Assembly: GCA_003024785.1 (NCBI GenBank)
Contig: PUQB01000704.1
Coordinates: forward strand, 1-64,000
DNA from: Selaginella tamariscina
Lineage: Eukaryota > Streptophyta > Lycopodiopsida > Selaginellales > Selaginellaceae
Length of the DNA: 64,000 nt
Direction: 5' to 3'
Every line of letters starts with the position of its first letter. Position 1 is the first letter of the stretch. Shown one piece after another: positions 1,791 to 30,283 of the stretch. The notes under the pieces were generated by a model, which was given only the letters and a program-made list of their open reading frames with translations, had not been told where the DNA came from and did not search any database. The position numbers were made by a program, and so were the translations under genes.

Positions 1791-1890
1791 AATATATATG
1801 TGTATTAGTATATATAAGTTGCATATCTCATTTTATTTACTTTTATCATCTTATCATAATATTTCGAGTAAAAGCTAGGAATCTATGTAA

Positions 1891-1977
1891 AACTGTCCAG
1901 AGCTCACATTTGTGGTGGTTCTAAAACGAAATGTTATCTTTCTTTTGCACTAACACAAATGTGAGCTTCGGACAGTT
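1891..1977. other. 87-nt stem-loop upstream of gene A, copy 1
   Basis: A 25-nt left arm (1891-1915) is complementary to a right arm (1953-1977) with about three mismatches, enclosing a 37-nt loop. The structure lies about 100 bp upstream of a splice-acceptor-like TTTTGCAG that precedes the first recognised coding segment of gene A. It is conserved in the second module copy. It could be a small-RNA hairpin, a MITE-like relic or a 5'-leader structure; the sequence does not decide. Confidence 0.6.
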
Positions 1978-2118
1978 AATTACGTCTACTTCTCTCTGTG
2001 TATTATTTTTGTATATTCGGGTTTATACAAGTGTGTGTGCGTTTTTATATAATTTGTATTATAGTGTATTATTTTGCAGAAGGACGATTTGATCAAACAA
2101 GGAGATCGAGTCATTAGT

Positions 2119-5100: not shown

Positions 5101-5219
5101 CAGGACCCATGGAAACATCAATAGAAGATGCAGAAGATCTTGAACCATCTCACAAGCGGCTTAGACCTTCTTCGCCTCACTCAGAAGGTAATAGCGAAGA
5201 AGAATTGATAATGAATTGA
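2119..5219 (+). pseudogene. Gene A copy 1: ParB-like / methyltransferase-like gene, frameshifted
   Basis: This is colinear with the intact copy at 20,627-23,732, with very few substitutions and the same three introns: 2142-2202, one around 3,517-3,578 and one around 4,421-4,474. Compared with that copy it lacks single bases near 2433, 2622, 2743, 3191 and 4951, each of which breaks the frame. The reading frame is therefore split across at least five pieces. All five differences are one-base deletions, none is an in-frame stop substitution. This is compatible with recent pseudogenization or with uncorrected long-read indels. The domain layout is described at the second copy. A variant palindrome (GGGCGGGATTTATCTCGCC) sits in the second intron at about 3,533. 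Confidence 0.8.
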
Positions 5220-5330
5220 TAGAGTGATGAATAGTTGTAAATGAGTGTAACATAAGGCATTTTTGTATATTTCTTTTATATTTGTACAGAAAATAAATTC
5301 TCAAGGATTAATGAAGCTTTTAGTTCAAAC

Positions 5331-6654: not shown

Positions 6655-6935
6655 AAAAATTAACATGTTGATAAGAAAATGATTTCATTTGTAATTATGT
6701 TTGATAGTATTTCTTCATTATTGTAAACTATTTTTAGAATAATATGAATATTCTAAGATATTTTAGGAATATTCCTTACTAAGTAAGGTTATTGAAGGAT
6801 TAATTAATTAATTAATTAATATTTAAGGCTTAATTACATATTAATTAAATGATTAATTAATAATTAAAACTTAAGTATTAATTAGTAATTTATTTTATAT
6901 TCCCATTTTCACGTATCATGCCCACTTTAGTTACA
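6655..6935. other. AT-rich 3' tail and right edge of module copy 1
   Basis: The DNA is AT-rich with runs of TTAATTAATTAA. It is nearly identical to 25,178-25,463 of the second copy. Identity between the two copies stops exactly after TTACAACGTGCAT, which marks the module's right edge. No gene is seen. Confidence 0.75.
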
Positions 6936-6959
6936 ACGTGCATAGTTCCTAAGTTCTGT

Positions 6960-10483: not shown

Positions 10484-10531
10484 GATTTCGAGAACAAGAA
10501 GGCTTGACTCAAGAACAGGACCGAGAGCAGG
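10448..10531. repeat. Right arm of inverted repeat flanking the gag-pol remnant
   Basis: The core 10,448-10,508 (TGTCAAGCCACG ... AAGGCTTGAC) is the reverse complement of the left arm. It begins within codons just past the RNase H domain, so it overlaps the end of the pol frame. Confidence 0.75.
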
Positions 10532-10720
10532 ACAGGAACCAGGAACAGGAACAGAACAGGACGGATCCAGGAGCAGGACAGGATCAGGATAGGATCGGGA
10601 ACAAGACAGGAAAGCAGGATAGGATCCAGGAACAAGATAGGAACTAGACAGGATCCAAGAGCAAGACAGGAGCAGGAGGCAAAGAGTAAGACAAGAACAA
10701 GACAAGAGCAAGGAACAAGA
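10520..10720. repeat. Purine-rich degenerate tandem repeat
   Basis: About 200 bp are built of CAGGAACAGGA and CAGGATCCAGGA-like units of roughly 11-12 bp, almost entirely purine on the plus strand. It lies directly outside the right inverted-repeat arm and resembles short phrases of the element's own linker in reverse complement. No coding capacity is claimed. Confidence 0.65.
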
Positions 10721-10759
10721 ATAATCGTAGAATGACTGGTGTTGATAGTAACTGATTGT

Positions 10760-11700
10760 ACAACAATTAGGTCAGAGCTTTTATGCTCACAACTCCAAGC
10801 TAATCTAGTCATGAGTCTAATATGCAAGTTGTAACTAAATGGGCATGGCTATAGTCCCATTTCCTAATAATTTAGCAATTTTAGCTATTTAATTAGCATT
10901 TCTAATATTAAAGGAATATCTTTAGAATATATGTTTGAAAAGAGAATATTCTTTAGAATATCTATTTTGTATTCTACCCTTTAATAAATTATAGCATTCA
11001 TTGAACAAAAATTAATAACATTAAAAAGTAGAATGTATTAAATTATATAATATATTGCCTAATAACAATTAAGGAAGAGCATAAGAGGTACATTATATAA
11101 ATATTGATGTTGTTATTAAAATATTAATATTTAATATAACATTATTAATTAAAAATTTGTAGTAGTAATATATATATAAAAATCCTATAATAATATAGTC
11201 AATCTTCCATATCATTTTTTAAATTTATATAGTTAAGTATACAATTTGGTACTATTATTAAAGAGTTTATAATAATTATGAATATTAAATATATGTATTT
11301 TATAATTTTTGTAATTGCTTTAAGCTTCAGAAAACATACATTCCTTGCAGTTTTGTTAATCGTGACTTTATCAACGCTTCTTGACATCCACCCATATCGA
11401 ATGGATTAACATTTATAAAACATGCTGGGTCTTTTTGATTGGGAGACATGTTTTCTCTAGGCATCCATTATATCTTTCGCTCTCCTTCTCGTGTCGCCTT
11501 TTTGTGGTTTGAACCATGCAACCTTAACAATACTATTTTGTGATTACTTCAGGTGTGTCGATAATTTGACCCATCCAAATAGGCTGATTATATGACGCAT
11601 CTGGAGTAATGAGAACCATCATTAGTTTTTGAAGATCCTTGCAGCAATCAAAGTATGCTTTAGGTTTTGGTTCCTTTGTCCAACAAAGTGTGGGGTTTGC
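10760..11700. other. AT-rich intergenic DNA
   Basis: AT-rich sequence with TAATAATAT-type runs separates the gag-pol remnant from the minus-strand DUF7869-like gene. No coding region, RNA gene or clear repeat boundary is recognised. Confidence 0.6.
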
Positions 11701-11774
11701 ACTTCCACATCACTACTGGCTTCTATGTCGTCTGTGCTCAGTGATGTCATTTCAATCTCCTCTCGCCACTTGTT

Positions 11775-14522
11775 TTAGGCCAGAAAGGGTGTTGCAATTC
11801 TGTACTTGACAGTAGGCCCTTCCAACTCTCGAACAACAGTCTCCCAATAGTTGACCACATGCTTATATAGTTCTGAGTAACCAGTTGCCTTATCAGAATT
11901 CTTTGGCATCGATTTTTGAACCCATGCCACATATTTTTTGATGCCATCAATAATAACCTCTTGTTCCTTGAGCTGGGCACTCAATGGAATAGGGTCTGGT
12001 TGTCCTTCTGGGAGAAGTGGCTTTCCATCCTCTCCACTTTTGAAGAGCATTAAGCCCTCTTTCGGTAACCACTCCTGCTCTGATGGCCGTAACTTGTACT
12101 GCATAATAGGTATACCATCTCGTATGGAGAAAAAGAATTGTAGCGGCACAAGGTGACCAACTAAAGAATCACTCCCTTCTTTTATATCTCTTGAGAAATT
12201 TTTTGAAGTCTGGCACCTCAGTCACAAGCAAAGCACAACTTTTTTGGAGATGCAATTTTCAAAAAGATTCATCATATGCGGTAAGGTAAGTGCACTTGTC
12301 CTTTTTGTAGAGTTGGAGACCTTGCTGAAGAACGCATCAATATCTTCATGAGTGTGACCAACCATAAGGAAACTGAGCGTGATTGTTTCAAACACACCTT
12401 TGGCAACAAGCATTGACAAGTATGCTAGCACATATCTAGAAAATAAAAGTAAGTATGAGCTTGAGAAACCCTTAAGTAAAATGATTTACCTATTTTTGTT
12501 CTCGCCTGCACAATTATCCATCTGTAAAAGCAAATGACGAGGAAGCTTATTTGATGTTGAGGACACATGTACACTATTTGAGCTAGATCCCTCCACTGAA
12601 CCTGAACTCTCAACAGGGCCATCTGTTTTTTGTGCAGGTTGCTGACAATGCTCTCATATTCCCAAGTAGCCTCAAGTGCAGACGTGTTCATGAGAGCATT
12701 ATGTAAAGGTTGAAGGTGTTGTTTCTTCACTTTGAGATCACTGATAGGATTTGTCTGAGAGTGGGCTTCAAGGTTTCTGAAACACATGGCTAACGACCCA
12801 ATAGTGAAATTGGAGTCGCTAGACCAATGTGGAAGTGAAAAGTGTCCATATGACTCACAACCGTGTCCATGTGTTAGCACACCTGTTAAAGAAATCGGAA
12901 GTTTCATGACATTTCCAAGGCACTTTGGTGTTGCAAAGAGCTTTGGAATGCTGGTCTTTGAATGATCCATCTTGTCATGGATCAAGCACAGATACTCTGA
13001 TGGGCGTGACACAGAAAGCATGCGGTGTGCATAGTACTGAGACCGACAAGTTTGTTGTGCAATCATGTGGGCCTCCATCTTCTTTTGAATGGTATGATCT
13101 CCACCAAGGTTTTTGCACAAGCCTCTGCAGCCTTCAATGATGTACAAGTGTCACACTTAGAAAAGCTAGAGTGTTTTGCAATCTCCACATCCTTAAAATG
13201 AGTATTCCATATGTTGTTGAAGGTACCAGTGCAGATTGCTTGGAGCCCCATCAAACTGAGGCACTTGTTCACATGTTCACACAGTTTCAATTGAGTGTAG
13301 ATTGAAGGTAAAACCTTGAGATTTTCCCTGACCCTGCATTTGTGGTTCGGCATTTGTGAGGCATCCTGTCTGCATTTGCTTCCACAAAAGCCTTGAGTAT
13401 CTCTATGGCTGCCATGATGTGAGAGCGGGTTTTGACCAAGCGAGTGTTCCCATGAACTGAGGTTCGCGCTCCATCTAGCCACTCATCCTCCGACGGTAGA
13501 ACGTGGTCTTTGGGATCCCGTATATACTGTACCAAGCTTTGAAGCAGATGGCCACCTTATTAAATACCATGGATGTACTCTGATAACCTGTGTCCGAGGC
13601 CATTCCATCAATACACCCAGTTAGTGCAGCATATACAAACTCATGCCTTTGCTTTTGGGTGAGCATACGAAAGACATGTCTACATTGGGTAATTTCATTC
13701 CGGTCTGCCATCTGACAACACTTCTTCTTGCAACAGTCAATCGTGGAAATGCTCGTAACACTTTCGGGAATGTAGGATCCATCTTTACCCTCTTGCTGAA
13801 ACTTGCAGGGGAAGATCTACAACCCATGAATCGCCTTTTTCTTACAATAGGACCAATGCAAGGAACCTCTTCAAATATGAGTTGTTCTTCCGGGTTGTTA
13901 TTATTGAAATCCAACCCAGAATATGTTGAACCATCTTGCCGTCTTAATTCAGATGTTCGCCACCTCACGAGGGATCCAGGATACAATGTGCCATTAGGTG
14001 AAACCTCTGTCACAACTAACCCACAAGTCGGACCCTAGTTTCTCTTCTGACACTGCTTCCATTGGATTTATAGCTGTGATGATGCCTCTTCCGACTTCAA
14101 TCTCACGAAGAAAGAGAATCACCTCATCCATCACAGCAGGCAAGCCATCATCTGGTAAACTCGTGCTACTATTTGTTTGTGACTCTGCATATTTGTGTCA
14201 GCCTTGACTTCATCCAAATTCCACAATACAGGAGAACCTCCTCAAATTCCATTCCCAGAACCTCAACATGCTTGAAAATGGTGTTCACCCATACGTACAC
14301 ACAAGATCCTTGGGAAATATTGTGACATGATGCATTATTATCTCGAACTTCCACAGTTCCAATGCCAACTATCTCGTTGTTCCGAAGAAGACATACTTTA
14401 TCTCCAGTATTAAACATATTGTCCTGCAATAACATAAATATTATTTTATGATATCTGTTTATGCAATATTTTAAGAAATCTGAATTACGGTTACTTAATA
14501 ATATGCATATGCAATAATACAT
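11775..14522 (-). pseudogene. DUF7869-like gene (putative transposase-derived), broken
   Basis: Read on the minus strand, the N-terminal half has a segment at about 13,475-13,711 with C-R-H-V-F-R-M-L-T and the phrase Y-G-I-P-K-T-T-F-Y-R-R. Near 12,500 comes M-D-N-C-A-G-E-N-K-N, and across a short intron (about 12,435-12,490) R-Y-V-L-A-Y-L-S-M-L. This is followed by F-L-M-V-G-H-T-H-E-D-I-D-A-F-F at about 12,330-12,380. The D-N-C-x-x-E-N-K-N-R and V-G-H-T-H-E-D-I-D signatures are those of the plant/animal family I know as DUF7869, generally regarded as mobile-element related. Several frameshifts separate the pieces. The upstream part (13,621-14,522) is less conserved and its gene structure is uncertain. 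Palindrome array B lies directly upstream of its 5' end. Confidence 0.6.
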
Positions 14523-14571
14523 AATTATGTTTAGAGATAATATCTCATGTTTGATTAATACAACTGATGGG

Positions 14572-15143
14572 CGGGATTAATCCCGCCACTCCCTCCGACG
14601 AGGAAGTCGGCGGGATTAATCCCGCCGACTCCCCCGGAGAGAGTCGGCGGGATTAATCCCGCCGGACTCCCTCCGCGGAAGAGCGGCGGGATTAATCCCG
14701 CCGCTCTTCCTCGTCGGGGGAGCGGCGGGATTAATCCCGCTCTTCCTGTCGGAGGAGTCCAAGGCGGGATTAATCCCGCCCACAATTCTTACGACGGGGA
14801 ATGGGTGGGGGATTAAATCCGCACATAACTCTCTCCAAAACTATGATTTCAAAGAGATCTCGGGATAAATCCTGTCCCCAAATCTTTAAAACAGTGAAGT
14901 GGTGGCGAGATTAATCCCGCCACCCCTTCCCTGCCTCCTAAAATGGTTGGCGGGATTAATCCCGCCGACAACTCTTTCTAATAAATTCTGGTAACTCTTC
15001 ATCAGTTGAGAAGGTTATCGACGGGATTAATCCCGCCACTCTTTTTCAGTGGCGGAGAAGCATTGCCCGGGAGATGGTGGCGGGATTAATCCCGCCACTT
15101 CTTCAAAGAGGCGAAAAAGAAATGGCCGGATTAATCCCGCCGC
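14572..15143. repeat. Palindrome array B
   Basis: About 12 copies of GGCGGGATTAATCCCGCC or close variants occur, the first six at 35-41 bp spacing, then more widely spaced and more degenerate. Spacers such as CGACGAGGAAGTCGG are themselves partly palindromic. This array belongs to no recognised gene A copy; it lies upstream of the minus-strand DUF7869-like gene. Confidence 0.9.
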
Positions 15144-15149
15144 CCCGGT

Positions 15150-16600
15150 TAACCTAGAATATTAAGTTAAAAGGATATTTAAACGTGATAAATCCCTAAC
15201 GGAATATATTATAATCCTAATGCATTTCTAAACCCCTAAATTGTAATTTTAAGAGAGAATGTAAGAGAGTGAATCTTAATAAGTATTTTTAAATTTGTTT
15301 ATAATACTTACTTGTAAACAGCACTGAAGGCGCCGTGCTTTCCTATAAAGAATAGCACCCAATTTAATCTCGCTCCTGAGATGATCACTATGAAGAAAAA
15401 AGAAGATCTAAAGAGTGAAAAATACAGAAATGAAGAAACCCTTGCCGGAGAAAGAACCAGATCTGAATTTGAGTGGGAAATTAAATGCATTTTCAAATTT
15501 ATATGTCAGACCGACAATACATATGTCAGAAATTCAAATTTTTAAAAAGAACAGAAAATAAAATTTAAGATGAGTTGACACAAATATCCGACACTCTGAC
15601 ATATATACTCTCCAGTTCCAATGAGTATTTTAAAATTGCATTTAATGTTATTCAAGTGATTCAAGCTGTTTAATATTACGAAATTTTAGACTATATTCTA
15701 CATTCTTAGTATTCAAGTATATTTATATTATATATATATATAATAAATACTTATACAATAAATAAATTGATATATTATTATGTATCATTTAAAATATATT
15801 CATAGTCTGTTTATTATTATTATTTTCTTAATTACTCGAGTATTTAGTTTTCATTTCCTAGTATCAATGGGATATTCTTTAATATTTTATTAATATTTGA
15901 AGAATATTCTAATATTAAACCTGATTATCATAATTAAATTAGTCTTGTTCTTAATTATTGCAGTAATTATTCTACATTTGTATATATTAATGGGATTTTC
16001 TCAATTAATTTGTTATTATTTCAAGAATATTCATGTGTTAAACCTTATTATCAATATTAAATTAATACACACTATGAACATATTTTAAATTATACATAAT
16101 AATACATCATTTTATCTAATATATAGTCATATATAGTTTTAATAATATATATATTAATATCATTTCCTTAATTACTTGAGTAATTAATCTTCTTTATATT
16201 AATGGGATATTCTTTATTATTTTCTTATTATTCCAAGAATATTCCAATATTAAACATGATTATGATAATTAATTTAGTTAATTATTTGAGTACTTAATTT
16301 ACATTTGTATATATTAATGGGATTTTCTCAATTAATTTCTTATTATTTCAAGAATATTTCAATGTTAAACCTTTTTATCAATATTAAATTAATATATATT
16401 ATTAAAACTATATATGGCTATATATTAGATAAAATCATATATTATTATGTATAATTTAAAATATGTTCCTAGTGTGTTTATTAATTTTATTTTCTTAATT
16501 ATTCGATGTTTGTTTTGCACACATATATAAACACAATCATAAATTTACACACGCATTACAAGAACTTACAAAAACACATATGCACACACATGCACAACCC
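15150..16600. other. AT-rich DNA with internal degenerate repeats
   Basis: Very AT-rich. A phrase like TATTAATGGGATATTCTTTAATATTTTATTAATATTTGAAGAATATT recurs in altered form at about 15,870, 15,990, 16,200 and 16,320, giving a degenerate tandem repeat of about 120-200 bp. No coding region is recognised. Confidence 0.55.
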
Positions 16601-16738
16601 TAAACCAAACTGAAGAAATATGTTGCTTCTTTATTGAAAACATCATGTTCAACGCATGTATGATATATGTACTCAATCTGTGTATATGTAACACATTGAA
16701 TTTACATGTGTAATATTTATATTAAGCTTGTTGGGAGC

Positions 16739-16782
16739 AAACCCTAAACCCTAAACCCTAAACCCTAAACCCTAAACCCTAA
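16739..16782. repeat. Interstitial telomere repeat (CCCTAAA)n
   Basis: Six uninterrupted plant-type telomere units (AAACCCT) lie in an internal position. Isolated CCTAAACC phrases occur near 16,600. Confidence 0.95.
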
Positions 16783-16789
16783 TATGTAA

Positions 16790-17345
16790 CACAATGAATT
16801 TACTCATGTAATATGTATGTATGTCTGTGTGTATACACGTGTGCATGTATATATGTGTACTCTGTATGTATATATGTGTACTTTCTGTCTTCTCTCATAC
16901 ATACACACCATGCATGATCCATGTTAATATGTACTGTCTCTCTTCTCTCAAACATACACACCATGCATGATCTATAATATGTACTCGGTCTCTCTAATAT
17001 TATGTACTAATATGTATGTATGTCTGTGTGTATAATACACACCATGCATGATCCATATTAATATGTACTGTCTCTCTTCTCTCATATACTATGTATGTAT
17101 ATCTGTGTATAATATGTGTAAGTATATATGTGTACTAATATATGCAATGTGTACAAAAATAATTTTTCAACACTCTCTCTTCTCTCATACATACACACCA
17201 TGCATGATCCATCCTAAATCCAAAACCCTAAACCCTAAACCCTAAACCCATGTAATATGTGTGTATGTCTGTGTGTATACACGTGTGTATGTATATATTA
17301 TGTGTATTAATATATGCAATGTGTACACATGAAACTTTAACACTC
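16790..17345. repeat. Subtelomere-like tandem repeats
   Basis: The phrase CATACACACCATGCATGATC recurs near 16,900, 16,955, 17,038 and 17,192. It alternates with TGTAATATGTATGTATGTCTGTGTGTATACACGTG-type blocks at about 16,805, 17,010 and 17,250. The block lies between two telomere-repeat tracts, so it resembles subtelomeric satellite DNA. No gene is seen. Confidence 0.6.
17214..17250. repeat. Second interstitial telomere repeat tract
   Basis: It begins CCTAAATCCAAAACCCTAAA and continues for three further CCCTAAA units in the same orientation as the tract at 16,739. Confidence 0.9.
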
Positions 17346-17599
17346 TCATGGACACACACATGTTAAATCCCTGCATGATTTATATTTTTGAGGTGTATGT
17401 GATACACCCACACACACGCACGCGCTAATAATATAATGAAAGAATATTCGTTTAGGGCGAATCTATATTTTATTCTTTTTAGGGTTTAAGTATATTCTCA
17501 GAAGGAATATTCTATTAGGGTTGATATATATATTTAATTCCTTTAGGGTTTAGGTATATTCTTAGGGTTTCAAGAGGCGGCGGCTGTGAAATCGGCGGC

Positions 17600-17871
17600 G
17601 GCGGCTGTGCACACAGGTGAGATCTGTGTGTGTGTGTATGTATGTATATATGTATAGGAGTGTGCGTATAATTTTTTTTCTTAGTTTTATCTCTCGCACA
17701 CACACGCACACTCCTGTGTATGTATATGTGTCTGTATGATTTATTTGTTTCGCTCACACACGCATACACACGATATACATATACACATATATATATATAT
17801 ATACCTATATACATATATACATACATATATTATGTGTACCAGTATCTGTAAATTTTTTTTATTGATCTTGC

Positions 17872-17937
<66 letters not shown>

Positions 17938-18022
17938 GTGTACCAGTATCTGTAAATTTTTTTTTATTGATCTATCTCTCCCACACACGCGCACTGCTTT
18001 ACACACACACACACACACACAC

Positions 18023-18056
<34 letters not shown>

Positions 18057-18720
18057 ATGCATATTAACAAATAGTATACAACACTAGTTTATATATATGC
18101 TTATATATTCATAATATACACACATATATATATGTGTGTGTTTATCTGTATAATTTTATTTATTTATTAGTTTTATCTCTCGCACACACACGCACACTCC
18201 TGTGTATGTATATGTGTGTGTGTGTGTGTTTGTTTATCTGTATGATTTTATTTGTTTCGCTCACACACGCATACACACAATATACATATACACATATATA
18301 TACCTATATACATATATACATACATACAACACTAGTTTATATATATGCTTATATATTCACAGACTCTCTCTCTTTCTCTATAGATTATATATCTATATAC
18401 ACATATATATGTGTGTGTTTATCTGTATAATTTTATTTATTTATTAGTTTTATCTTTTGCACACACACGCACACTCCTGTGTATATATATGTGTGTGTGT
18501 GTGTTTGTTTATCTGTATGATTTTATTTGTTTCGCTCACACGCATACACACGATATACATATACACACATATATATACCTATGTACACACATATATTAGG
18601 TGTACCAGTACTGTATAAGTTTATTTATTTATCTATCTCTTGCACACACACGTACACTCCTATACATACATACATACATACATATATACACACACACACA
18701 TATATATGTGTGTGTTTTTA
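17600..18720. repeat. TG/CA/TA satellite block preceding module copy 2
   Basis: Repeated blocks carry TTTATCTGTATAATTTTATT, then TTATCTCTCGCACACACACGCACACTCCTGTG, then TG and TA runs. Starts near 18,130 and 18,412 give a unit of about 282 bp. A 104-bp repeat of GTGTACCAGTATCTGTAAATTT occurs at 17,835 and 17,939, with another copy near 18,600. Pure CA runs lie at about 17,876-17,908 and 18,000-18,022, and TA runs at about 17,910-17,936 and 18,025-18,053. Open frames here are low-complexity artefacts. Confidence 0.75.
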
Positions 18721-18734
18721 TCTCGCTAAGCCCC

Positions 18735-20285
18735 TCGAGCGGCGGGATTAATCCCGCCGCTATATAGTTGGGGCCATGGCGGCGGGATTAATCCCGCCGC
18801 CGAGGCCCTTCAGGCATGGGTGAGCGGCGGGATTAATCCCGCCGCCGAGGCCCTTCACGCAGGCTATGGGCGGCGGGATTAATCCCGCCGCTCTACGACA
18901 AACCGAAGAGCGGCGGGATTAATCCCGCCGCCCATAGCCTGCGTGAGGGGCCTCGGCGGCGGGATTAATCCCGCCGCTCATCCATGCCCTGCGCGGAATG
19001 CGGCGGGATTTATCTCGCCGGCAATGGCCTGTGTGAAGGTTCTAATGGGCGGGATTAATCCCGCCGGATTCCGCGCAGGGCATTTACAGGGAATGGGCGG
19101 CAGGATTAATCCCGCCGCTCTTCGGTTTGTCGTAGAGCGGCGGGATTAATCCCGCCGCCCAGGGAATTCACGCAGGACATGAACGGCGGGATTATCCGGC
19201 CCCACGCTCATGCCCTTCGCGGAGGGCGGCGGGATTAATCCCGCCGTTCATGTCCTGCGTGAATTCCCTGGGCGGCGGGATTAATCCCGCCCCCACCCAT
19301 CCCTGTTCAAAAATGCCGCAGCCAATATATATGTGTGAGCGCATGATTTACGAGAGGGCGGCGGGATTAGCCTCCGAACCTTCATTACCCGGTGGCGAGA
19401 TTAATCTCCGAACCTTCATTACCCCATTGGTATGTTGAATCAATCCCGACTAACTCTGTCTGAGACGGAGAAGGTTTACAAAATACCAATGGAGGGAACC
19501 GAGAAGGGTGGTGGGATTAATTTCACCATCCCTTACATGGTGGGCGGGATTAATCCCGCCGCGTACGCATGCCCTGCGCGGAATCGGGCGGGATTTATCC
19601 CGCCGCCATTGGCCTGCCTGAAGGGCCTAGGCGGCGGGATTAATCCCGCAAGATTTCGCACAGGGCATTGGCGTTCGGCGGGATTAATCCCGCCGACTAA
19701 GGCCCGAGTGAAGGGCCTGGGAGGCGGGATTAATCCCGCCGACGCCAATGCCCTGTGCGAAATCGGGCGGGATTATCCCGCCGCCATTGGCCTGCCTGAA
19801 GTGCCTAGGCGGCGGATTAATCCCGCCCGATTCCGCGCAGGGAATTGGCGTCCGGCGGGATTAATCCCGCCGCATAGGGACGAGTGAAGGCCCTGGGCGG
19901 CGGGATTAATCCCGCCGAGTCTTCAATGCCTGTTGGAGAAATGAATCTCGCCACCCTTCCCTTTTTCCTCCATTGGTGAGTTGGACCAATCCCAAACGTT
20001 TCTGTCTAAGACGTAGAAGGTTTACAACATACCAATGGAGGGGACTGGGAAGGGTGGCGAGATTCATTTAACCATCCCTTACATGGTGGGCGAGATTAAT
20101 CCCGCCTCCTTTCTGGAGTCACTGAAGGGGTGTGAGAAATAAATCCTGCCCAGTTCTCTCTGAGACCGAGAAGGGTGGCAAGATTAATTCCGCACTCCCG
20201 TTCAAGGCCTCCAGAAAGGTGGCGAGATTAATCCCGCCCACTCTTTCAGGAGGCATTGAAGGGGTGGCGAGATTAATCCCGCCGC
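18735..20285. repeat. Palindrome array C
   Basis: About 27 copies of GGCGGGATTAATCCCGCC and close variants, plus several weaker ones. The first six (18,741-18,975) are nearly all perfect and spaced 40-50 bp. Spacers invert around a centre near 18,895, where GCTATGGGC and its complement flank the sequence symmetrically. The right third is homologous to the right third of array A, with the same decay to CGAGATTAATCCCGCC. Confidence 0.93.
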
Positions 20286-20397
20286 ACCTTCCATGTGAAT
20301 ATATATGTGTATTAGTATATATAAGTTGCATATCTCATTTTATTTACTTTTATCATCTCTTCATATTATTTCGAGTAAAAGCTAGGAATCTATGTAA

Positions 20398-20484
20398 AAC
20401 TGTCCAGAGCTCACATTTGTGGTGGTTCTAAAACGAAATGTTATCTTTCTTTTGCACTAACACAAATGTGAGCTTCGGACAGTT
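20398..20484. other. 87-nt stem-loop upstream of gene A, copy 2
   Basis: This repeats the arrangement at 1,891-1,977: left arm 20,398-20,422, right arm 20,460-20,484, with the same arm sequence. It ends about 100 bp before the TTTTGCAG that precedes gene A. Confidence 0.6.
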
Positions 20485-20626
20485 AATTACGTCTACTTCT
20501 CTCTGTGTATTATTTTTGTATATTCGGGTTTATACAAGTGTGTGTGCGTTTTTATATAATTTATATTTATAGTGTATTATTTTGCAGAAGGACGATTTGA
20601 TCAAACAAGGAGATCGAGTCATTAGT

Positions 20627-23600
20627 ATGGAGTCGTCGTCAAATTCTGGGTAAGAATTAAAATAAAATCTGTTATACTCGGATACTTGAACTAATCATTT
20701 TTGTATTCAGATGTGGAATTGAGGTGACATTAAAGTCAAGAGCAGGAGAAGAGATGGGCAGGGGGATTCTGGAATCAACTTGGCCATATTTTAAGATAAA
20801 TGGGAAGCGCATTGGAGCAACCATGGCTGCTGTCAAATTAACCTCTGTCACATCTCATGGACAAGCAAAACAATGGAAAGTTGATTCGCTAGTCAAGCAC
20901 CCGAAAGCAGGCTGCGAACCCAGATTGGACGATGCTCGACAGATATGCCTTGTTCCATCCAATGTCACGTTCTCGGATCCAGAGGTCGTCAGTTACAACA
21001 TTAATCTCGGGTGGTTTTGTCGACTTGTGGATAATGACGTTCACGTGTTCACTAATGATGTTGACCTTGGAGTTCTTCTTCAACTCAACGAAAGCCCATC
21101 TATGGAGGGGATCCATCTGGATGTCTACTTCGAAGATCTTCAGACTCATCGAGTAGGTGTATTGTCAGGAGATATTGTTTCACAATACAGAAAATCAGCA
21201 AGTGGAGCAATCTTCCCTCTTGACATTGAAGAAGAACACAGCGACATCATAAGGGAGATTGAGAAGGTGGCTCGGTCTCAGGTTCTCTACAGATCACGTT
21301 CAATTTGCTTAGGAAGCTTCGGGAGCTGGAGCAGTGTGCCGAGAACACTAGAACAGCTGCAGTCGGGGATCACACATGTTGATTCGGATCGCAAAAGAAA
21401 ATCATCAATCGTTTTGTCAGCTGCACCTGTGGCATCTCATGCTGCAATAAGTCACAAGGAAATGATGTTGGATGATAAGATTTATCCTTGTAGGGTTAAA
21501 TATTGCAGCGTCAACCCAAACTTCAATTACAGGCCACTCAACCAGGAACGTGTAGCTGAGCTCATGGAGAAGATGAAGGACGACAATTCTTATACCGTTC
21601 CACATAATGCTGTTTTGTGTCCATACTATGAAAGAAGGAAGGGTGCTGACAAAGTCTGGATCACAACACCAGAACAACTCATGAAGATTCAGACGGAGAA
21701 TAAAAGATCTATCAAGTACTACATCATTAGTGGCCAGCACACAATAACGGCAGCCCAACGACTTCTCGAAGAACACAACAAAGGAACGATGGCAACAAAA
21801 CTTTCCGAGCATACCCGTGAGAAGCTGACAAAAAGATCGGCGTTTTTAGCTAAGCCGAATCTCACAATCGAGCAGTACCATAAGTTATCGGCGGAATGGG
21901 ACGCTGCCGACACCAACCACTACAACAGCAAAATATGGGAGAAGTTTAAACACACGCGAGCCGTGTGGGAATCTCTTCAGCGACCACAAAGAGCTACCGC
22001 AGGGAATACACAATCTGCGGAATACCGGGTAAGCAAATTGTTTGGGCGGGATTTATCTCGCCGGTATATTAATCTGTCTTTTTCCTCAGAGAGTTGAAGA
22101 AATTGCAGCAGTTGATTTTGCCCAGGTGGGCGGGAAGGAAACATCATTTCTGATGATGTTGATTTCTTGCCCCGAAGATAGGATCTTTGCCAAATGGTTG
22201 GGGATTATGGAATCCTTTTCAAAAGGAACACTGAAGAAGAAGCAGACAAGTGAAGGGGAGCCCTCAGAAAAGTCTGCAAAGAAACCCAGTAAGACGCCGA
22301 AGGCTAAGTCTGTTCAATCTACAAAGGATGTAGACAACGATTTCAAGCTCACATGGTTGAAGCCTTTAAATGGAACAACGATGGAGGAGATGGAAGTCTT
22401 GGCTGATTTGGTGATCGATGGCAAACTACAAATCAATAACAGCAGCCCAACCTCTCCTTTTCATCTCAAGGCAATGGAGTTGAAGACGGTCAGGCATTTC
22501 AAGGAGTGGTTGGGAATACACTGCCACAAACTGGGTTGGACCTCGACTTCAACATATGAAGAGGTTAGCAAATATTTGCATGTGACGAACGATGATATGC
22601 TTGTCGAATGGGTGAACCAATCGGAAGATCTAGGCAAGAATCTATTGCACGCCAACGCCAAAAAGGAGAACATTGGGATGACGCCTTCTCTTATGGCAGT
22701 CCTTCAGCAGCGGAGAACCGAATTGAACCTTATAAAGGAGGATGCTACGAATCACGACAAGCCCTACAGATGTTTGTTGTTAGATTCGGAGTCTTTATGG
22801 GGTAACATCACTGCTTGTAGGAAACCGTTTCAATTGTTCGTGATGGATCGGCGGGTGTCAAAAAATCTTTCGACAGATAGGGCACTAGAGGATCTGGTGG
22901 AGAAACTTAGCCGTGCAAGCATATACATAGAAGGTATTTATTATTGAATTCATGCTTGCGCTCTTCACTGATACCTACTTTTTCAGGTATTTATTTCTTG
23001 ATTCTTGCTCATGTCACCGATACTTTTGCCTTCGCCTTCGCCAAGAAGAATAGACATCGTTGGACAGGATTTTATATGAACGATGCTAATCCCAAGTGCA
23101 TTGATACTGTTGTTCACTTGGTTGTTAGGAATGCGCCAAACAATTTCAAGCTTCCAAATGACTGGCCAGGCATCTGTTTGCACTCCAACGGCCCTGAACC
23201 TCCATCCGATACACCGATAGGTATGAGTGACGTATTCGGCAATGTACGTTATCCAAACATTACAAGTCAAGCGGCACGGAGCATCGTCAACTTGATCAGG
23301 GGTCCTCACAGTGATGCGTGGGTTTTTGACTACTGCACTAGGGGGTCCGTCTTGAAGGAGTGTTACCTTCGGCATACATGTGTGTTTGCCGTTGAGAAGG
23401 ATAAGACCATGGTTGAGGACCTGAACAAGTGGATAGATTGGGTCTCAACTGAGTACCCCAACGATTCCATAAAGGCGTATTTGAGAAAGTTCCCTCCAGA
23501 TAAGTGCGATAGCTCTGAAGGTGAATCTGGTTCAATCTCGGAGTCTGAGAACGAACATCAATCAGATATTAGACCGGAAGTTATCTCGAGGAGTACAGAA

Positions 23601-23732
23601 CATTCGCACACTCCAGGACCCATGGAAACATCAATAGAAGATGCAGAAGATCTTGAACCATCTCACAAGCGGCTTAGACCTTCTTCGCCTCATTCAGAAG
23701 GTAATAGCGAAGAAGAATTGATAATGAATTGA
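20627..23732 (+). CDS. Gene A copy 2: ParB-like domain + methyltransferase-like domain protein, intact
   Basis: Four exons with GT-AG introns (20,627-20,649; 20,711-22,028; 22,090-22,933; 22,987-23,732) sum to 2,931 bases, an exact 976 codons plus stop. The frame also stays open upstream to an acceptor at about 20,587, so the true N terminus may lie in an earlier exon. Residues about 265-370 look like a ParB/sulfiredoxin-type N-terminal domain: V-N-P-N-F-N-Y-R-P-L near 275, then Y-Y-I-I-S-G-Q-H-T with G-Q-H at 349-351, where ParB proteins have G-E-R-R. A Lys/Ser-rich linker follows. Residues about 690-880 follow the layout of beta-class amino-methyltransferases: F-V-M-D-R-R-V (D700) where D-P-P-Y is expected, then V-F-D-Y-C-T-R-G-S (D843) and F-A-V-E-K-D (E865), a motif I-II spacing. 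The tail is Ser/acidic with a basic H-K-R-L-R patch. Domain calls are inference from motifs. Confidence 0.7.
22046..22065. repeat. Palindrome variant inside the second intron of gene A
   Basis: GGGCGGGATTTATCTCGCC lies within the 61-bp intron 22,029-22,089. The same variant is present in array C near 19,009 and at the matching intron of copy 1 (about 3,533). Confidence 0.8.
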
Positions 23733-23843
23733 TAAAGTGATGAATAGTTGTAAATGAGTGTAACATAAGGCATTTTTGTATATTTCTTTTATATTTGTAC
23801 AGAAAATAAATTCTCAAGGATTAATGAAGCTTTTAGTTCAAAC

Positions 23844-25177
23844 ATGGGTCACACATTAACAAGGTAAATAATATACCTTGATAATTTTAAGGTCAGCTAA
23901 TTATCATTTTGCAGATGTAATGAAATAATTGAGAACATGGATTTTCAGCATTGCCATGAGGTAAGAGAGGGTTTGGCGACAATTTTTTGTGCCACATGTC
24001 AGAATGACAGAGTTCATGCAGGAAATGGATAATAATGCAGCTCAAAACATCGTTACCATGGGGGCCACTTCAGTTTTTGCATCATCATTTTTATTGGCTT
24101 CAATTCCGAAATCAATTTCTTCAGCGCATGCAATATCTGAATCTTGTAAGGATGATGTACAATTAAATGATGAAGGGATAGGCAACGAAATAGTGGCAAC
24201 GGATAAATGTGAAAGGGAGCAAACAAGTGATTTGCAAAGTATTCAAGAGGCAACGCTATCTCATGTTACTCATGGCCATATTGTGTTGTTGGATGTCAAT
24301 GGTGTTCTGCTTCATCGACAAAGGCCCGAGGATAGAAAAACAGAAATCAAACAAGGAGATTTCATTCCTTGTCATGGTAAATTTCGATATGATATTATTT
24401 TTCGTCCAGGGTTGGATCGTCTCTTTCAAAAGCTTAAGGAGATGGGTGCGCTTGTGGGGATTTGGTCATGCATGCAGATTCATAACTTAACACCGCTGTT
24501 GAGTTTACTTAAGAAACATTGTAGTGTTGCAGAAGAGGTGATTCGTAAAGATTGGATTTTTGACCAGCGAATGTGTTATAAACCTCTCGAATTTCACAAT
24601 ATAGGAAAGAAAGCAAGCCATACTTCTTCAAGAATGAAAGAATAATTGGGACTCATGGGGAGATCAGTCGCTTAAGGATAACGAAGAATGCACATATCTT
24701 AGTAGTAGACGACTCTCCTCAGAAGGCTATGCTCAACCAAAACATTGCTTGTATTCATCCAATCACTTTCGATCCATATTCTGATATCGATATCATGGAT
24801 GAGCTAGTGAACTACTTGGATACGTGCCTCAGAAAGAAGAATCTCGAAAATTTTTGTGAGCAGTATCCACCGTATCATACATTTCCTGAAGCTTTTCTTT
24901 CTCGTGATATTGAATTTTATAAAATGAAGAATAGCAACCGGCGCTTTATAATATTATTCTTAAGGAACGTCAGTTTTTAGATGAGCCTTTATGCAGACCT
25001 TCTCTTATCACATCTTATGTATTAACAAGGATGGCAACTCCCAATTGCATTCGTGAGAGTGTTAAGTGGTGGCAACAACATCAAGATATTGACCAAAATG
25101 ATTTGATTAATCCGGAGAGTGATGATTTAGACAAAATGAAAAGATTTCTTTGTATGATAGAAAGAAAGTATTTATAA
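23844..25177 (+). pseudogene. Gene B copy 2: NIF/FCP1-like HAD-fold protein, frameshifted
   Basis: The gene lies about 110 bp downstream of gene A on the same strand. A possible first exon begins at ATG 23,844 with a GT-AG intron 23,864-23,914. A 218-codon open stretch runs 23,989-24,645 and contains L-L-D-V-N-G-V-L at about 24,286-24,309. The frame slips near 24,605, and the expected V-V-D-D-S-P motif is in the next frame near 24,705. A GGG-to-GG change relative to copy 1 near 24,941 causes a second slip, and the stop homologous to copy 1 is at 25,177. The family (NLI-interacting factor-like phosphatases) acts on phosphoproteins such as polymerase II tails; here the D-x-N variant of the first motif lacks the usual second acidic residue, so phosphatase activity is doubtful. 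Neither copy in the window is uninterrupted. Confidence 0.7.
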
Positions 25178-25463
25178 AAAAATTAACATGTTGATAAGAA
25201 AATGATTTCATTTGTAATTATGTTTGATAGTATTTCTTCATTATTGTAAACTATTTTTAGAATAATATGAATATTCTAAGATATTTTAGGAATATTCCTT
25301 ACTAAGTAAGGTTATTGAAGGATTAATTAATTAATTAATTAATATTTAAGGCTTAATTACATATTAATTAAATGATTAATTAATAATTAAACTTAAGTAT
25401 TAATTAGTAATTTTTTATATTCCCATTTTCACGTATCATGCCCACTTTAGTTACAACGTGCAT

Positions 25464-25570
25464 TTATATACAAGAGCGAGTGGTCCAGATTGAATCCAAT
25501 CCGACGGCTATCAAAATCCACTACGCTAATAATAGTATGTGCACATGCAGCCGTACACGTGGATCTTACA
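25464..25570 (-). repeat. Truncated 3' LTR
   Basis: These 107 bp are identical to 30,177-30,283. The 54 bp that should complete the LTR at its left end are replaced by module copy 2 sequence ending ACGTGCAT. Confidence 0.9.
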
Positions 25571-25602
25571 TCATCCCCTCCTCTCGGAAGGGTGTAAGTT
25601 GG

Positions 25603-28600
25603 TTAGGGTTCTCTTGTAGACGGGCCCGGATCTGGAGGAACATCAGGAGGAGGCACTGGTGGATCTGTAGGCGGCACAACTTGTTCCCGTTGCACAAAAT
25701 GCTTCAACCGTTGTACATGTACAATCTCCGGAGGATCGGGTTGAATGTCGTGCCGAACCTCATAAACCTGTGGTCCTACTTGCCGTAACACTCGATACGG
25801 TCCTTTCCATTGAGGAAGGAGACTCTTAGCTAAACCACGTACCGTAAGCTTGGGAAAACGAACCAACACCAGTTCATCAACCTTGTACTCCGCAGGAGGA
25901 CGATGATGCGAGTTGTACCGTTGTTGTTGTCCTACTTGTACGCGGCCCAAGTGTTCTGCTGACTCCGCACGAACCAATGGAAGGATGCTGTCAGATACCG
26001 ATCCCATGACCTAGCATCAGCAGCTCGCGGTAACCGAGACGGCAAACCCAACTCCGTTGGCAACACCGGGTCATGACCATACAAAAGCTTATATGGAGAA
26101 GTACCAATGGAACTTTGAACTCCAGTGACATAAGCATATCGGAGAGACGGCAGATAACCATCCCAATCTGAATGTTGAAAGTTCACATACTTTGCGATCA
26201 TCCCCTTGAAGGTTCTAACAAGCCGTTCCACTAAACCATCTGTCTGAGGATGATAAGCACTTGTGAAAGTGTGGCGTATCCCTAATCGAGATGTCAAAAC
26301 ATGAAATGCCTCAGCCATAAATGCGGGACCATTATCCGAGAGAATTCGCTCCGGACAAGAATGCTGAAACACGACCCGATTCAGGAGAAACTGACCAACA
26401 GCAGAAGCAGTCGCACTAGCAAGAGCACCAACTTCTACCCAACGAGTTAGGTAATCAGAAGCAATAATAACGTACTCGTTACCAGCAGTTGACCGCGGAA
26501 AAGGTCCCATCAAATCAAATGCCACCAATTCAAACGGACGAGAAACTGCAATTGACTCCAACCGTCCTTCCGAAGCACATGGGGGAGTATTGCGAGCTTG
26601 GCACCACACACAACTACGCACATACCGAATCACATCTCCTCGCAACTCCGGCCAATAGAAAGATCTGCGCAGCTTCTCCATCACCCGACGATGTCCCATG
26701 TGCCCGCCAAGAATAGGAGAGTCATGGTAAGCATGGAGGAAGCGTGGAATGAAGATTGAAGGCACCACCAACCGCAAAGGATCATCTGGATCAGTCCCCA
26801 CAAAATAAAGAAGGTCATCCTGAAGGCGATACTGTGAATGTAAATGCCTGAAAGGCAAGTCATCAGCAAGTGATGCAGGATTCTCAAACCCATCACGAAG
26901 CCTTCGAATCCACGGCTCAACCTTTTGAGCTTCCCGAACCTCATCCAAAGACGGCAAATCTAACTCTGCATTCTGCGGACACTGAACGTCAAGCACAGCA
27001 ACTGCTGATGGTACGGAATCTTCATCCAAAAAGTCCACTGAAGCTGGAACAACTGGTTCCTCTGGGGCAACAGAAGAGAGAGAAGGTGGAAGAGGAGCCC
27101 GAGAAAGAGCATCAGCATCAGCCATGGAACTCCCTGGACGATGAACAACTTCAAAGTCGTAAATTTGAAGTTTCAAGGCCCACCGAGCAGTACGCCCAAT
27201 CAAATTCTTTCGCTTCAACAACGAAGTGACTGCTGCATGATCACCTTCCAACAACGTCCGCGAACCATGCAAGTAGGCATGGAGCTTCTCAAAACCCCAA
27301 ACTGCTGCTAGACACTCCTTTTCAGTTGTGGAGTAATTCACCTCTGCTGGCTGCAATGTACGGCTGATGTACGCAATGGGATGTCGTTGGCCAGGAACAC
27401 TTGTACTCTCCTGCATCAATACACCCCGAGGCCGATGTCAGAAGCATCTACACGCAAGATGAAAGGACGAGTGTAATCCGGGTACGCCAAAACTGGAGGA
27501 GTCGTCAACAACTCTTTGAGATCTGCAAATGCCTGCTTGCAATCCTTAGACCAAACAAAAGAAGTCATTGACGATTTCAACAACGCGCGCAACGGTGCAG
27601 TACGATCTGAAAGATGATCCAAAAACGACCCAGATATTGTACCTTGCCAAGAAAGCGTTGCACATCATTCACACACTTCGGCGTAGGGAACTTCAAAACT
27701 GCAACTAGTTTGTCAGGATCGACTTGCAAACCTTCACGTGAAATGCGATAACCCAGATAAGTGGTGTCCTTTGATCCAAAACACACTTAGATGGCTTCAA
27801 CTTCAAACCAACTTCCCGCAGTCGATCCAAAACCTTACGTACATCACCGACATGCTCCTCCCACGTTCCATGAATGGATCAAAACATCATCGATGAAATC
27901 AGCAGTCACCTCCGGCATGTCGCAAAGAACCTCATCCATCATACGCTGGAAAGTTGCTGGAGCATTGCTCAAACCGAAAGGCATCACCAGGAACTCGTAC
28001 AGGCCAAATGGTGTTCGAAAAGCAGTCTTGGGAATGTCCATGTCAGCCATCGGAACTTGCCAATATCCAGATGCGAGATCTAACTTGGTGAACCAACGGC
28101 TCCGCCCCAGTCGATCCAAAAGGTCTGCAGTATGAGGAAGTGGGTACACATCTGAGACGGTTACCTCATTTAACGGGCGATAATCAATGCAGAATCGAAC
28201 GCTCCCATCAGGCTTCGTCACAAGGTGAGGTTCGCACGCCCAAGGACTTCGAGACTTCCGGATAACACCCTTCTCCAACATCTCTTTGACATTCGCTCGT
28301 AAGATCTTGAGCTCCTTTGGTGATCGACGCCGAACAGGTACCTTGATTGGCCTAGCTTCTCCAGTTGGAATAGGGTGGCGTGTCGCAATCTTGGCCCCAG
28401 ATGACAAGTCGAAGTTGAAAAGATCAGCATACTCCTTCTTGAGTTGATCAACAACTACAGCACGACGATCATCTGATGGATCCAAAGAAGAAAAGGAAGA
28501 GCATGAAGGGAAAATGGTTGGAAATAGGGTGAGACAAAAGTGATGGAAGCAGAGGTGGAAGCAGATGGACGAAGTGGAATAGAAGTAAGAGGAATGGAAG

Positions 28601-28623
28601 AAAGACGAGGGAGAGTCAAACAA
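25603..28623 (-). pseudogene. pol region: reverse transcriptase, RNase H, integrase
   Basis: Reading from the right, reverse transcriptase (28,623-27,844) has V-R-F-C-I-D-Y-R-P-L-N, K-L-D-L-A-S-G-Y-W-Q, F-G-L-S-N-A-P and F-I-D-D-V-L. The thumb and RNase H start lie at 27,786-27,416 in two frames (R-V-D-A-S-D). A 495-codon open stretch (27,419-25,932) holds the rest of RNase H and the integrase: an H-x-H-C-C zinc-binding block (G-H-M-G-H-R-R, C-V-W-C-Q) and a catalytic core with D-L-M-G-P-F and S-D-N-G-P. The C-terminal domain (26,007-25,603) includes K-G-P-Y-R-V-L. At least three frame changes split the polyprotein. Confidence 0.85.
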
Positions 28624-29024
28624 GGGGGAGACTTTTCAAAGTCACACTTGGCATGATTGCGAGTTAACCAATCCATACCAAGAATAAGGTGAAAAGCTTG
28701 ACTCGGCACCACCCGCAAAGATTGAAGCTCGAGCTCACAATCATCCACACGAACAACAATGTCCACTTCATCCCGCGAACAAGCATGAGTATGTCCGTTG
28801 CCGTACAGAATGAAGACTGGTTCTACCGCACGACGCAAATGAAGGCTGCAACGTGTAGCAACAGATTGAGAAACAGAGGACAAACTTGAACCTGTATCCA
28901 CCAACACTGAAAGGAAAACAGGATGAGGTGTGCGATTGAAACGAGCTTGAAAAGTGAAAACCGGATGATTTGGTGCCGAGTGAACCCCTTGATGATACTC
29001 CCGAAAGAAAGATGGAGGGGTCAC
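28455..29024 (-). pseudogene. Aspartic protease segment of the retrotransposon
   Basis: An open stretch holds the protease motif V-L-V-D-T-G-S-S and the downstream I-L-G-M-D-W-L. It overlaps the start of the reverse transcriptase piece in another frame, so it is either separated by a frameshift error or expressed by frameshifting. It would process the polyprotein. Confidence 0.8.
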
Positions 29025-29050
29025 TAATTTATTCGCACGAGGACCCTCCT

Positions 29051-30010
29051 CTACTCGTGCGATTCGTCGTTTCCCGGAAGATCCACCGCATCACAACCTT
29101 CCACTGCAGCAGCACCAACCGGACGTTGTTGACGCCATGGCCTCCATCCTGGAAATGGGGGACGCCAATCGGGAAACCGTTGACAGCGCCGATACGTGTG
29201 TCCAACCTCATCACATGCCCAACAACGAACTGCACGTCCACGTCCTCGTCCACGGGCCCCACCTTGTGCTGGTACACGAGCGGCAACAGCCTCAACCTCC
29301 ATCGGAGCAGGTCCATCCCCAACATGGAGTGGAACAAGAGCACGTGAAGGCACAAGTGGGAGAGGTGACGACTCATATCGTTGTGCCAGCCTCAAAGCAT
29401 CGTCAAGAGTCACTGGAGCTAGTGCATGCACAAGCCCCACAAGGTCTTGACGAAGTGCTGGCCACAACATACCTAACTTGATGCGTTCCGACATGTTAGG
29501 TTCTGCACGCAGCAAAAGGCTTCGAAAGCGAACACCAAACTGCATCACCGACTCAGATGGCTCCTGACGAATACGATGCAACTGCTGAAAAGCATCATCA
29601 CAGTCGTCCGCATGCCCAAATGCACGTTTGAAGATCTCTGGAAGAATATTCCAATCGCCACGAGTTGCAACGTCCAGACCATTGTACCACTGCAACGCCG
29701 TCCCTTGAAGACAAGTAGGAAACTCGCGCAAACACTGAGCACCGTCCCACGAATGATATGTGGCAACCACAGTGAAGTGGTCAAACCAATGGTACACATC
29801 ATCTCCAGGATTTCCGCGAAAGAAATCCGGTCGGACACGGGGGTTTGCAACATGAGTAGGAGGAGTACCCTGGCCTGTGAATGCTGCCATCAACTGAGAA
29901 TGATTGTTCAGTTGCACACGCATGGCATCCAACAACTGCATGAGTAACTGCTCCACAGACAAGGGATTTGTCTGTTGTGGATTCATGGATGAAGAAGAGA
30001 CAAAATCCAC
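29051..30010 (-). CDS. gag protein of the retrotransposon
   Basis: A 319-codon frame starts at M-D-F-V-S about 110 bp inside the 5' LTR. It has a retrotransposon gag core (G-D-D-V-Y-H-W-F-D-H-F; F-P-T-C-L-Q-G-T-A-L-Q-W-Y) and, near its end, a single zinc knuckle C-W-A-C-D-E-V-G-H-T-Y-R-R-C preceded by an Arg/Gly-rich patch. It is open throughout, unlike the pol region. It would package the element's RNA. Confidence 0.85.
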   Translation of the reverse strand: MDFVSSSSMNPQQTNPLSVEQLLMQLLDAMRVQLNNHSQLMAAFTGQGTPPTHVANPRVRPDFFRGNPGDDVYHWFDHFTVVATYHSWDGAQCLREFPTCLQGTALQWYNGLDVATRGDWNILPEIFKRAFGHADDCDDAFQQLHRIRQEPSESVMQFGVRFRSLLLRAEPNMSERIKLGMLWPALRQDLVGLVHALAPVTLDDALRLAQRYESSPLPLVPSRALVPLHVGDGPAPMEVEAVAARVPAQGGARGRGRGRAVRCWACDEVGHTYRRCQRFPDWRPPFPGWRPWRQQRPVGAAAVEGCDAVDLPGNDESHE

Positions 30011-30122
30011 AAGAAAGGAATAGATCTAGACAATGGAAAAGCTAGACCTAAGAAGACAGAGAAAAAAGACACAAATCCGAGCACTCCGTAGGGACAATTA
30101 GAGGTGCCCCCACCTCCACCAA

Positions 30123-30283
30123 TGTGAGAGCTCGGAATATAGAAATGTGTATATCCATTAGTTCAGAAACCCTAACTTATATACAAGAGCGAGTGGTCCA
30201 GATTGAATCCAATCCGACGGCTATCAAAATCCACTACGCTAATAATAGTATGTGCACATGCAGCCGTACACGTGGATCTTACA
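30123..30283 (-). repeat. Complete 5' LTR (161 bp)
   Basis: It is bounded by TG...CA on the minus strand. It contains the 107 bp shared with the left LTR plus the 54 bp missing there. It ends 203 bp before the L2HGDH start codon, which points the other way. Confidence 0.88.

Follow-up and report, generated by a model that had tools for sequence, protein, structure and literature searches.

VANDALs, the Arabidopsis transposons served by the anti-silencing protein VANC, are Mutator-like elements (MULEs), and the parS sites of bacterial ParB systems are clustered palindromes. According to the published accounts, VANC21 binds a short motif that occurs densely in tandem repeats, both upstream of VANA21 and within introns of VANB21 and VANC21, VANC causes a loss of methylation across the element, VANC6 has another motif (PMC5735166), and the regions targeted by VANC are targets of RNA-directed methylation (PMC10398659). 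Sola1-1_Ec32 of the brown alga Ectocarpus carries an accessory gene with ParB and methyltransferase domains on the strand opposite its transposase, similar transposons of green and red algae also have accessory genes of the ParB and DNA-methyltransferase kind, and the brown-algal authors suggested that the transposon's own DNA may be bound and modified by such proteins (PMC12477816). Sola elements have terminal inverted repeats of 11-1124 bp and, as the rule of the superfamily, a 4-bp target-site duplication; some exceed 15 kb, and they are known from a moss (PMC10741241). Here we describe a DNA transposon in a stretch of 64,000 nucleotides of Selaginella tamariscina (contig PUQB01000704.1; hereafter the window), which carries arrays of an 18-bp palindrome and a gene, designated gene A, with stretches that resemble ParB and a methyltransferase by eye. 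The original prediction, made from the letters of this stretch, had called gene A and its palindromes a possible uncharacterised module, a word that was too strong, since Sola1-1 of Ectocarpus has a published ParB and methyltransferase accessory gene. Transposons of this kind are already known; the new and useful feature is the palindrome arrays, dense at the starts of both divergent genes and accompanied by a site in an intron of gene A.

The arrangement of gene A and palindromes proved to be the right half of a DNA transposon of the cut-and-paste type, 14.6 kb in length. The interval originally proposed for them, 18735-25463, is the right 46% of one copy of this transposon (10822-25463, 14,642 bp), which ends in imperfect inverted repeats of ~26 bp; its right limit was retained, while its left limit moved to 10822, a position common to other copies. 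Matching with other copies (denoted here by L numbers) ran on to the left past 18735, the right end recurred in inverted orientation at 10822 with 2 mismatches in 19, and the left limit fell at 10820-10822 in three of the five upstream stretches fetched (L030, L031, and L033; L029 stops within the element and L032 is flanking repeat only). Since this inverted match and the starts of the upstream matches both point to 10822, the unit was taken as 10822-25463. On the other side, the limit lay no more than 10 bases from 25463 in 20/20 fetched copies (L018 and L028 matching in two pieces), and in the 17 right junctions printed the copies part ways after GTGCAT. Two pairs of copies on different contigs, L022/L024 and L014/L028, have right flanks in common (99.8% and 95% identical over 500 bases), so that the 20 fetched copies represent 18 distinct flanks; such pairs reflect either the repeated assembly of one insertion or a duplication of the flanks. 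As in a cut-and-paste element, the ends are fixed and bear terminal inverted repeats in many unrelated places. A 4-bp target-site duplication was exact in two of five end pairs (CTAT, ATTT), agreed in 3/4 bases in two (the window copy and a copy on contig C1), and was lacking in L030/L010.

The genome searched comprised 300.7 Mb in 1,391 contigs. A search with the array returned 40 places, the window's own among them, with 99-100% identity over the whole query (40 of 2,006 candidates were scored). Among the 20 fetched copies (L009-L028), 18 were 98.4-99.7% identical over one main match, and the other two matched in two pieces. One copy was found nested within gene A of an older copy of ~92% identity (L009, oriented positions 8510-9898, and L034), with GTGCAT directly followed by ATATGCTTG at the junction. 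The second copy that had been reported 18.5 kb away in the window was confirmed, with 98.4% identity over 5,887 columns (1085-6943 versus 19587-25463).

Gene A lies on the plus strand, and joining 20627-20650, 20712-22028, 22090-22933, and 22987-23732 yields 976 amino acids with three introns and no internal stop, in agreement with the intact 976-codon gene predicted originally. With the first junction shifted by one base (20649/20711), intron 1 becomes GT-AG, as introns 2 and 3 are, and the residue is unchanged. Exon 2 lacks a stop in 90/96 scored genome places at 90-100% identity, a count that is biased because those 96 of 6,564 candidates are the best-scoring ones. An alternative genetic code with TAA and TAG read as glutamine was dropped, as the introns account for the frame. 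The original arrangement of gene A with an adjacent array stands; it left unmentioned a third array (14570-15141) and a gene of the same unit on the minus strand, which matches PF25273 (DUF7869) in three places. Two of the matches surpass the curated threshold (12225-12485, E=1.6e-23; 12489-12653, E=1.1e-6), and the third, on the frame at 12425-13150, falls just short of it (E=1.3e-5). This gene is split into several frames in the window copy and has longer open frames in L033 and L031, being covered in L033 by three of 375, 306, and 345 codons. Its blocks HDKMDH, QMDNCAGENKN, and GHTHEDID may represent the acidic triad of a DDE/D transposase, and our guess is that the protein is a Sola transposase; no paper on DUF7869 was found in a literature search outside which preprints and most subscription journals lay. 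Downstream of gene A, gene B matches PF03031 on 24004-24642 (E=8.9e-9); it is frameshifted in the window copy, and in L012, L021, and L025 it stays in one open frame over 406-415 codons, counted between stop codons. The DUF7869 gene and gene A are divergent, and one palindrome array lies at the 5' side of each.

The palindrome, GGCGGGATTAATCCCGCC, has 62 matches in the window at up to 3 mismatches, compared with a mean of 0.00 and a largest count of 0 in 100 dinucleotide shuffles. All 62 lie in the two element copies: 26 at 173-1776, 11 at 14570-15141, 23 at 18741-20283, and single sites at 3533 and 22045, which occupy the same intron position in the two copies of gene A. The array next to gene A had been credited with about 27 palindromes; the number came to 23 at up to 3 and 25 at up to 4 mismatches. 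Its commonest spacing is 44-46 bp, and it stops 0.34 kb before the ATG of gene A, while the left array lies ~0.15 kb upstream of the point at which coding sequence of the DUF7869 gene is first recognized. A site matching the intron palindrome was present at the same place in 5/5 further copies (L036-L040). As an RNA hairpin the intron palindrome was unremarkable (z -1.5, with 15/200 shuffles folding as well). The arrays contain inverted-repeat spacers, and their units are gained and lost between copies (3-31 sites).

Genome-wide, the palindrome occurs exactly 27,128 times, and its reversed control 0 times. A tag of 30 bases from the ParB-like block of gene A, allowing up to 3 mismatches and counting tag places rather than complete copies, was found at 1,758 places (873+885; control 0). 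Positions of the two were compared on contig C1, up to the last palindrome listed. All seven gene A tags listed there are preceded by exact palindromes, 1.68-1.86 kb away in the 5' direction, and the 4 kb on the opposite side contain none, so the arrays and copies of gene A are not independent of each other. The same stretch holds 11 palindrome clusters, 7 with an adjoining tag and 4 without, three of the latter at 178272, 2057730, and 2071485. Probing beside the six two-part clusters revealed the element in each. Five of them were probed toward the DUF7869 gene, which in 5/5 lay across the array from the tag, and one was probed toward gene A. A seventh cluster, the fourth of those without a tag, is flanked in its element copy by the DUF7869 gene on one side and the spacer on the other. 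Thus, 7/7 probed clusters of the 11 were inside this element. In the window and these seven clusters, out of 27,128 sites, the dense motif was confined to non-coding regions and introns of the element. The association of gene A with the palindromes is therefore real, as that of two parts of one transposon, and because they belong to the same transposon, linkage alone does not show binding.

We compared divergence inside and outside the palindromes using five copies (L036-L040) that had been chosen solely on gene A, with a preference for lower protein scores. All five carry the palindrome: at up to 4 mismatches, four copies have 31, 26, 23, and 31 sites, and L039, in which the match does not begin until 20192, has 3. 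DNA identity in the main block was 93.9, 95.7, and 97.2% for the clearly diverged L036, L037, and L040, and 97.7 and 99.1% for L038 and L039. L036, L037, L038, and L040 together differed at 13/838 palindrome bases (1.6%) versus 121/2,841 spacer bases (4.3%), with a Fisher p=9e-5 that is only nominal because the copies share ancestry. Copy by copy, the counts were 4/196 versus 40/552, 6/144 versus 27/486, 0/249 versus 20/910, and 3/249 versus 34/893; the other copy in the window, outside that sum, gave 1/179 versus 19/525. Between units of one array, identity was 0.949 in the core and 0.416 in the flanks.

By eye, the gene A protein contains a ParB-like stretch (VNPNFNYRP...ERVAELMEKM...ISGQHTITAAQ) and a methyltransferase-like one (TSQAARSIVNLI...VFDYCTRGSVLKECYLRHTCVFAVEKD). 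The original prediction read these as ParB and amino-methyltransferase folds, for which profile searches, hhalign, and AlphaFold gave no support, all of these tests being weak and not decisive. At E<=10, Pfam had 0 matches to the whole protein and NCBIfam 0 to three exon pieces, and two exon pieces gave only unrelated Pfam matches under that database's cut-off. Three hhalign runs against an alignment of phage ParB-methyltransferase proteins returned probabilities of 0.6, 0.1, and 0.5%, all <1%; the first aligns another region, the second is that of the methyltransferase part, and the third, that of the ParB part, has the expected helix in register. AlphaFold models of contiguous single exon pieces had a predicted local distance difference test score (pLDDT) of 45 and 35, too low for use, and Foldseek found no match to the first at E<=0.001 (best E 0.41, treated as meaningless). 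No homologue was found at E<=1 in a database of 5.8 billion proteins (7,620 candidates) and no solved structure at E<=10; PHROGs yielded one match, to a family of unknown function (E=0.049), and tblastn of the two parts against phages gave chance matches only (best E 5 and 9). The motif [DNS]PP[YFW] was not found anywhere in the 976 residues. In the place of motif IV, 22/22 copies have MDRRV and one older copy has MDWRV, and FDYCTRGS of exon 4 is present in 20/22. Gene A lacks the DPPY-type motif IV of an N6-adenine/N4-cytosine methyltransferase domain, and the tests are compatible with the fold itself. If it has a methyltransferase fold, gene A is probably inactive.

Table 1. Features of the transposon and of its second copy, in window coordinates.
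Feature	Position	Strand	Remarks
5' terminal inverted repeat	10822-10847	+	ATGCAAGTTGTAACTAAAT.GGGCATG
DUF7869 gene, probable DDE/D-type transposase	11536-14437	-	limits approximate
Left palindrome array	14570-15141		11 sites, <=3 mismatches
Spacer, AT- and microsatellite-rich	15160-18735		AAACCCT (telomere-like) runs
Right palindrome array	18741-20283		23 sites, <=3 mismatches; 25 at <=4
Gene A exon 1	20627-20649	+	
Gene A exon 2	20711-22028	+	contains ParB-like block
ParB-like block	21490-21775	+	VNPNFNYRP ... ISGQHT (latter at residue 347), by eye only
Gene A intron 2	22029-22089	+	contains single palindrome
Single intron palindrome	22045-22062	+	in gene A intron 2
Gene A exon 3	22090-22933	+	FVMDRRV (MDRRV from residue 699) where DPPY-type motif IV expected
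Gene A exon 4	22987-23732	+	by eye only, VFDYCTRGSVLKECYLRHTCVFAVEKD like beta-class amino-methyltransferase motif I
Gene B, NLI-interacting-factor/CTD-phosphatase-like (NIF-phosphatase-like)	24004-25170	+	right limit approximate
3' terminal inverted repeat	25437-25463	+	minus-strand reading ATGCACGTTGTAACTAAAGTGGGCATG
Second copy (right array, gene A, gene B)	173-6943	+	contig begins inside copy, left part missing

Within the spacer, the runs of AAACCCT, which we take to be the plant-type telomere repeat, lie at 16743-16793 and 17213-17249. The right end of the transposon is directly abutted by a Ty3/Gypsy-type retrotransposon (25464-30283, minus strand) with gag, RNase H, and integrase domains and identical 107-bp repeats at both ends. 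To the left, 10447-10821 is a separate repeat, 80-84% similar to stretches in L031, where it also abuts the element, and in L032, where no element lies beside it. The AAACCCT runs, the GT-AG introns, and an S-locus glycoprotein domain elsewhere in the window mark the genome as eukaryotic and probably that of a land plant. That domain (53274-53741; PF00954, E 1e-5) is probably part of a receptor-kinase-like plant gene, and a frame at 48518-49090 on the minus strand resembles a Harbinger-type transposase by eye, with no Pfam match at E<=0.01.

In comparison with Sola1-1_Ec32, the element is likewise a giant DNA transposon with an accessory gene opposite the transposase and with ParB- and methyltransferase-like blocks, here seen by eye. 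It differs in that neither domain has profile support and [DNS]PP[YFW] is lacking, in its additional NIF-phosphatase-like gene and its probable land-plant host, and in its dense palindrome arrays, the string 'palindrom' being absent from the main text of the Ectocarpus report (PMC12477816). Its terminal inverted repeats fall within the range of 11-1124 bp given for the Sola superfamily (PMC10741241), whereas the 4-bp duplication was exact in only 2/5 end pairs. With the VANC/VANDAL system it shares dense, repeat-borne short motifs that lie mainly in non-coding regions and introns and whose units are gained and lost between copies. The VANC21 motif, YAGTATTAY, has 9 bases in one orientation and is not described as a palindrome, in contrast to the 18-bp palindrome of this element, and binding and demethylation are proven for VANC (PMC5735166) and inferred for the element. 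Clustered palindromes and a VNPN...SGQH block recall bacterial ParB-parS systems and phage ParB-methyltransferase fusions such as AcaML1 gp25; unlike these, gene A is a spliced eukaryotic gene in a transposon and has no detectable sequence relationship to them.

By analogy with VANC/VANDAL, we tentatively suggest that the element encodes a self-recognition and anti-silencing system, in which gene A is the most likely reader of the palindromes. The palindromes would be self-recognition sites for an element-encoded protein, most likely that of gene A, which would combine a ParB-like block with a methyltransferase-like block probably devoid of catalysis. The gene A protein would bind the clustered sites, or spread from them, and once bound would activate both promoters and shield them from silencing by the host, in the manner of VANC on the VANDAL elements of Arabidopsis. 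The NIF-phosphatase-like protein of gene B may aid transcription, a role at which we can only guess. The points counted in favor are the inverted-repeat ends, the divergent genes, the arrays at their 5' sides, the site in the intron, the near-identical copies, the co-location of tags and palindromes on contig C1, the slow change of the palindromes, a ratio of non-synonymous to synonymous change (dN/dS) of 0.30 for exon 2 of gene A in the most diverged copy, and a layout resembling that of the VANC21 targets. A literature search that joined palindromes, anti-silencing, transposable elements, demethylation, and tandem repeats, with preprints and most subscription journals outside its reach, found no paper combining all of these. 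The more specific version, in which gene A has a ParB fold and a catalytically dead methyltransferase-like part, reads the palindromes, and lifts the silencing of its own transposon as a second, independently evolved plant anti-silencing system, appears rather unlikely at present.

Several observations weigh against an anti-silencing role of gene A. The ParB and methyltransferase folds are not established, the motifs seen by eye being their sole support, and the constraint on the palindromes does not tell which protein binds them. The motif is palindromic and ATTA-cored, as we take homeodomain-type sites to be able to be. The full 976-residue gene A is found in 4/22 copies, frameshifts being common, and it is intact in only 3/20 fetched copies despite their near-identity, reflecting either assembly indels or decay. 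The most diverged copy, L036, with its dN/dS of 0.30, has a stop in gene A; in exon 2, dN/dS was 0.71 in L037 and 0.55 in L040, and the value of 1.40 for L038 and L039 rests on 6 changed codons each and is uninformative. Within aligned blocks of 1 kb or longer in L036-L040, palindrome changes at C or G affected 9/279 CpG positions (7 transitions, 2 transversions) and 0/346 other positions, all small numbers. The restriction of these changes to CpG suggests that CG methylation may occasionally reach the palindromes, an observation that does not favor full protection. The 20 near-identical copies, picked by array similarity, had 0 transitions at 5,594 palindrome C/G positions.

Among other explanations, it seems unlikely to us that the palindromes are sites of a host transcription factor, taken over as strong or constitutive promoters of both genes. 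The location of the sites 5' of the two divergent genes and their palindromic TAATCC/GGATTA core, which presumably resembles homeodomain sites, would suit such a factor, whereas the confinement of the 62 window sites to two element copies, and of the seven genome clusters probed to the element, speaks against it. Still less probable is a role of the palindromes as binding sites of the DUF7869 transposase, or in excision, in the manner of the subterminal repeats of other DNA transposons. They do belong to the element and change less than the spacers, as this would predict, but they are internal, at gene starts and in an intron: no site with up to 3 mismatches lies near either end of the window copy, the shortest distances being 3.7 kb on the left and, on the right, 3.4 kb for the intron site and 5.2 kb for the array.

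That gene A is an active N6-adenine/N4-cytosine methyltransferase that marks the palindromes of its element, in the way suggested for the Sola-1 protein of brown algae, we consider improbable to a slightly greater degree. The order of the motifs by eye and the published analogue, suggested to bind and modify its own transposon (PMC12477816), argue for it; the lack of [DNS]PP[YFW] in all 976 residues, the MDRRV of 22/22 copies at the expected place, and the lack of profile support argue against. Finally, it is very improbable that the palindromes are a functionless structural tandem repeat spread by slippage and hairpins, as the gain and loss of units and the inverted-repeat spacers might suggest, given the 95% identity of the cores versus 42% of the flanks between units and the lower divergence of the palindromes between copies.

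The palindrome provides a concrete candidate binding site, present in ~27,000 exact copies, at the starts of both genes and in an intron. With this candidate in hand, a single protein and a short DNA probe are enough to make the self-binding idea of the brown-algal work testable. Should gene A prove to be an anti-silencing factor, it would be a new type of protein doing the job that VANC does in Arabidopsis and, if so, a possible tool for site-specific epigenome editing.

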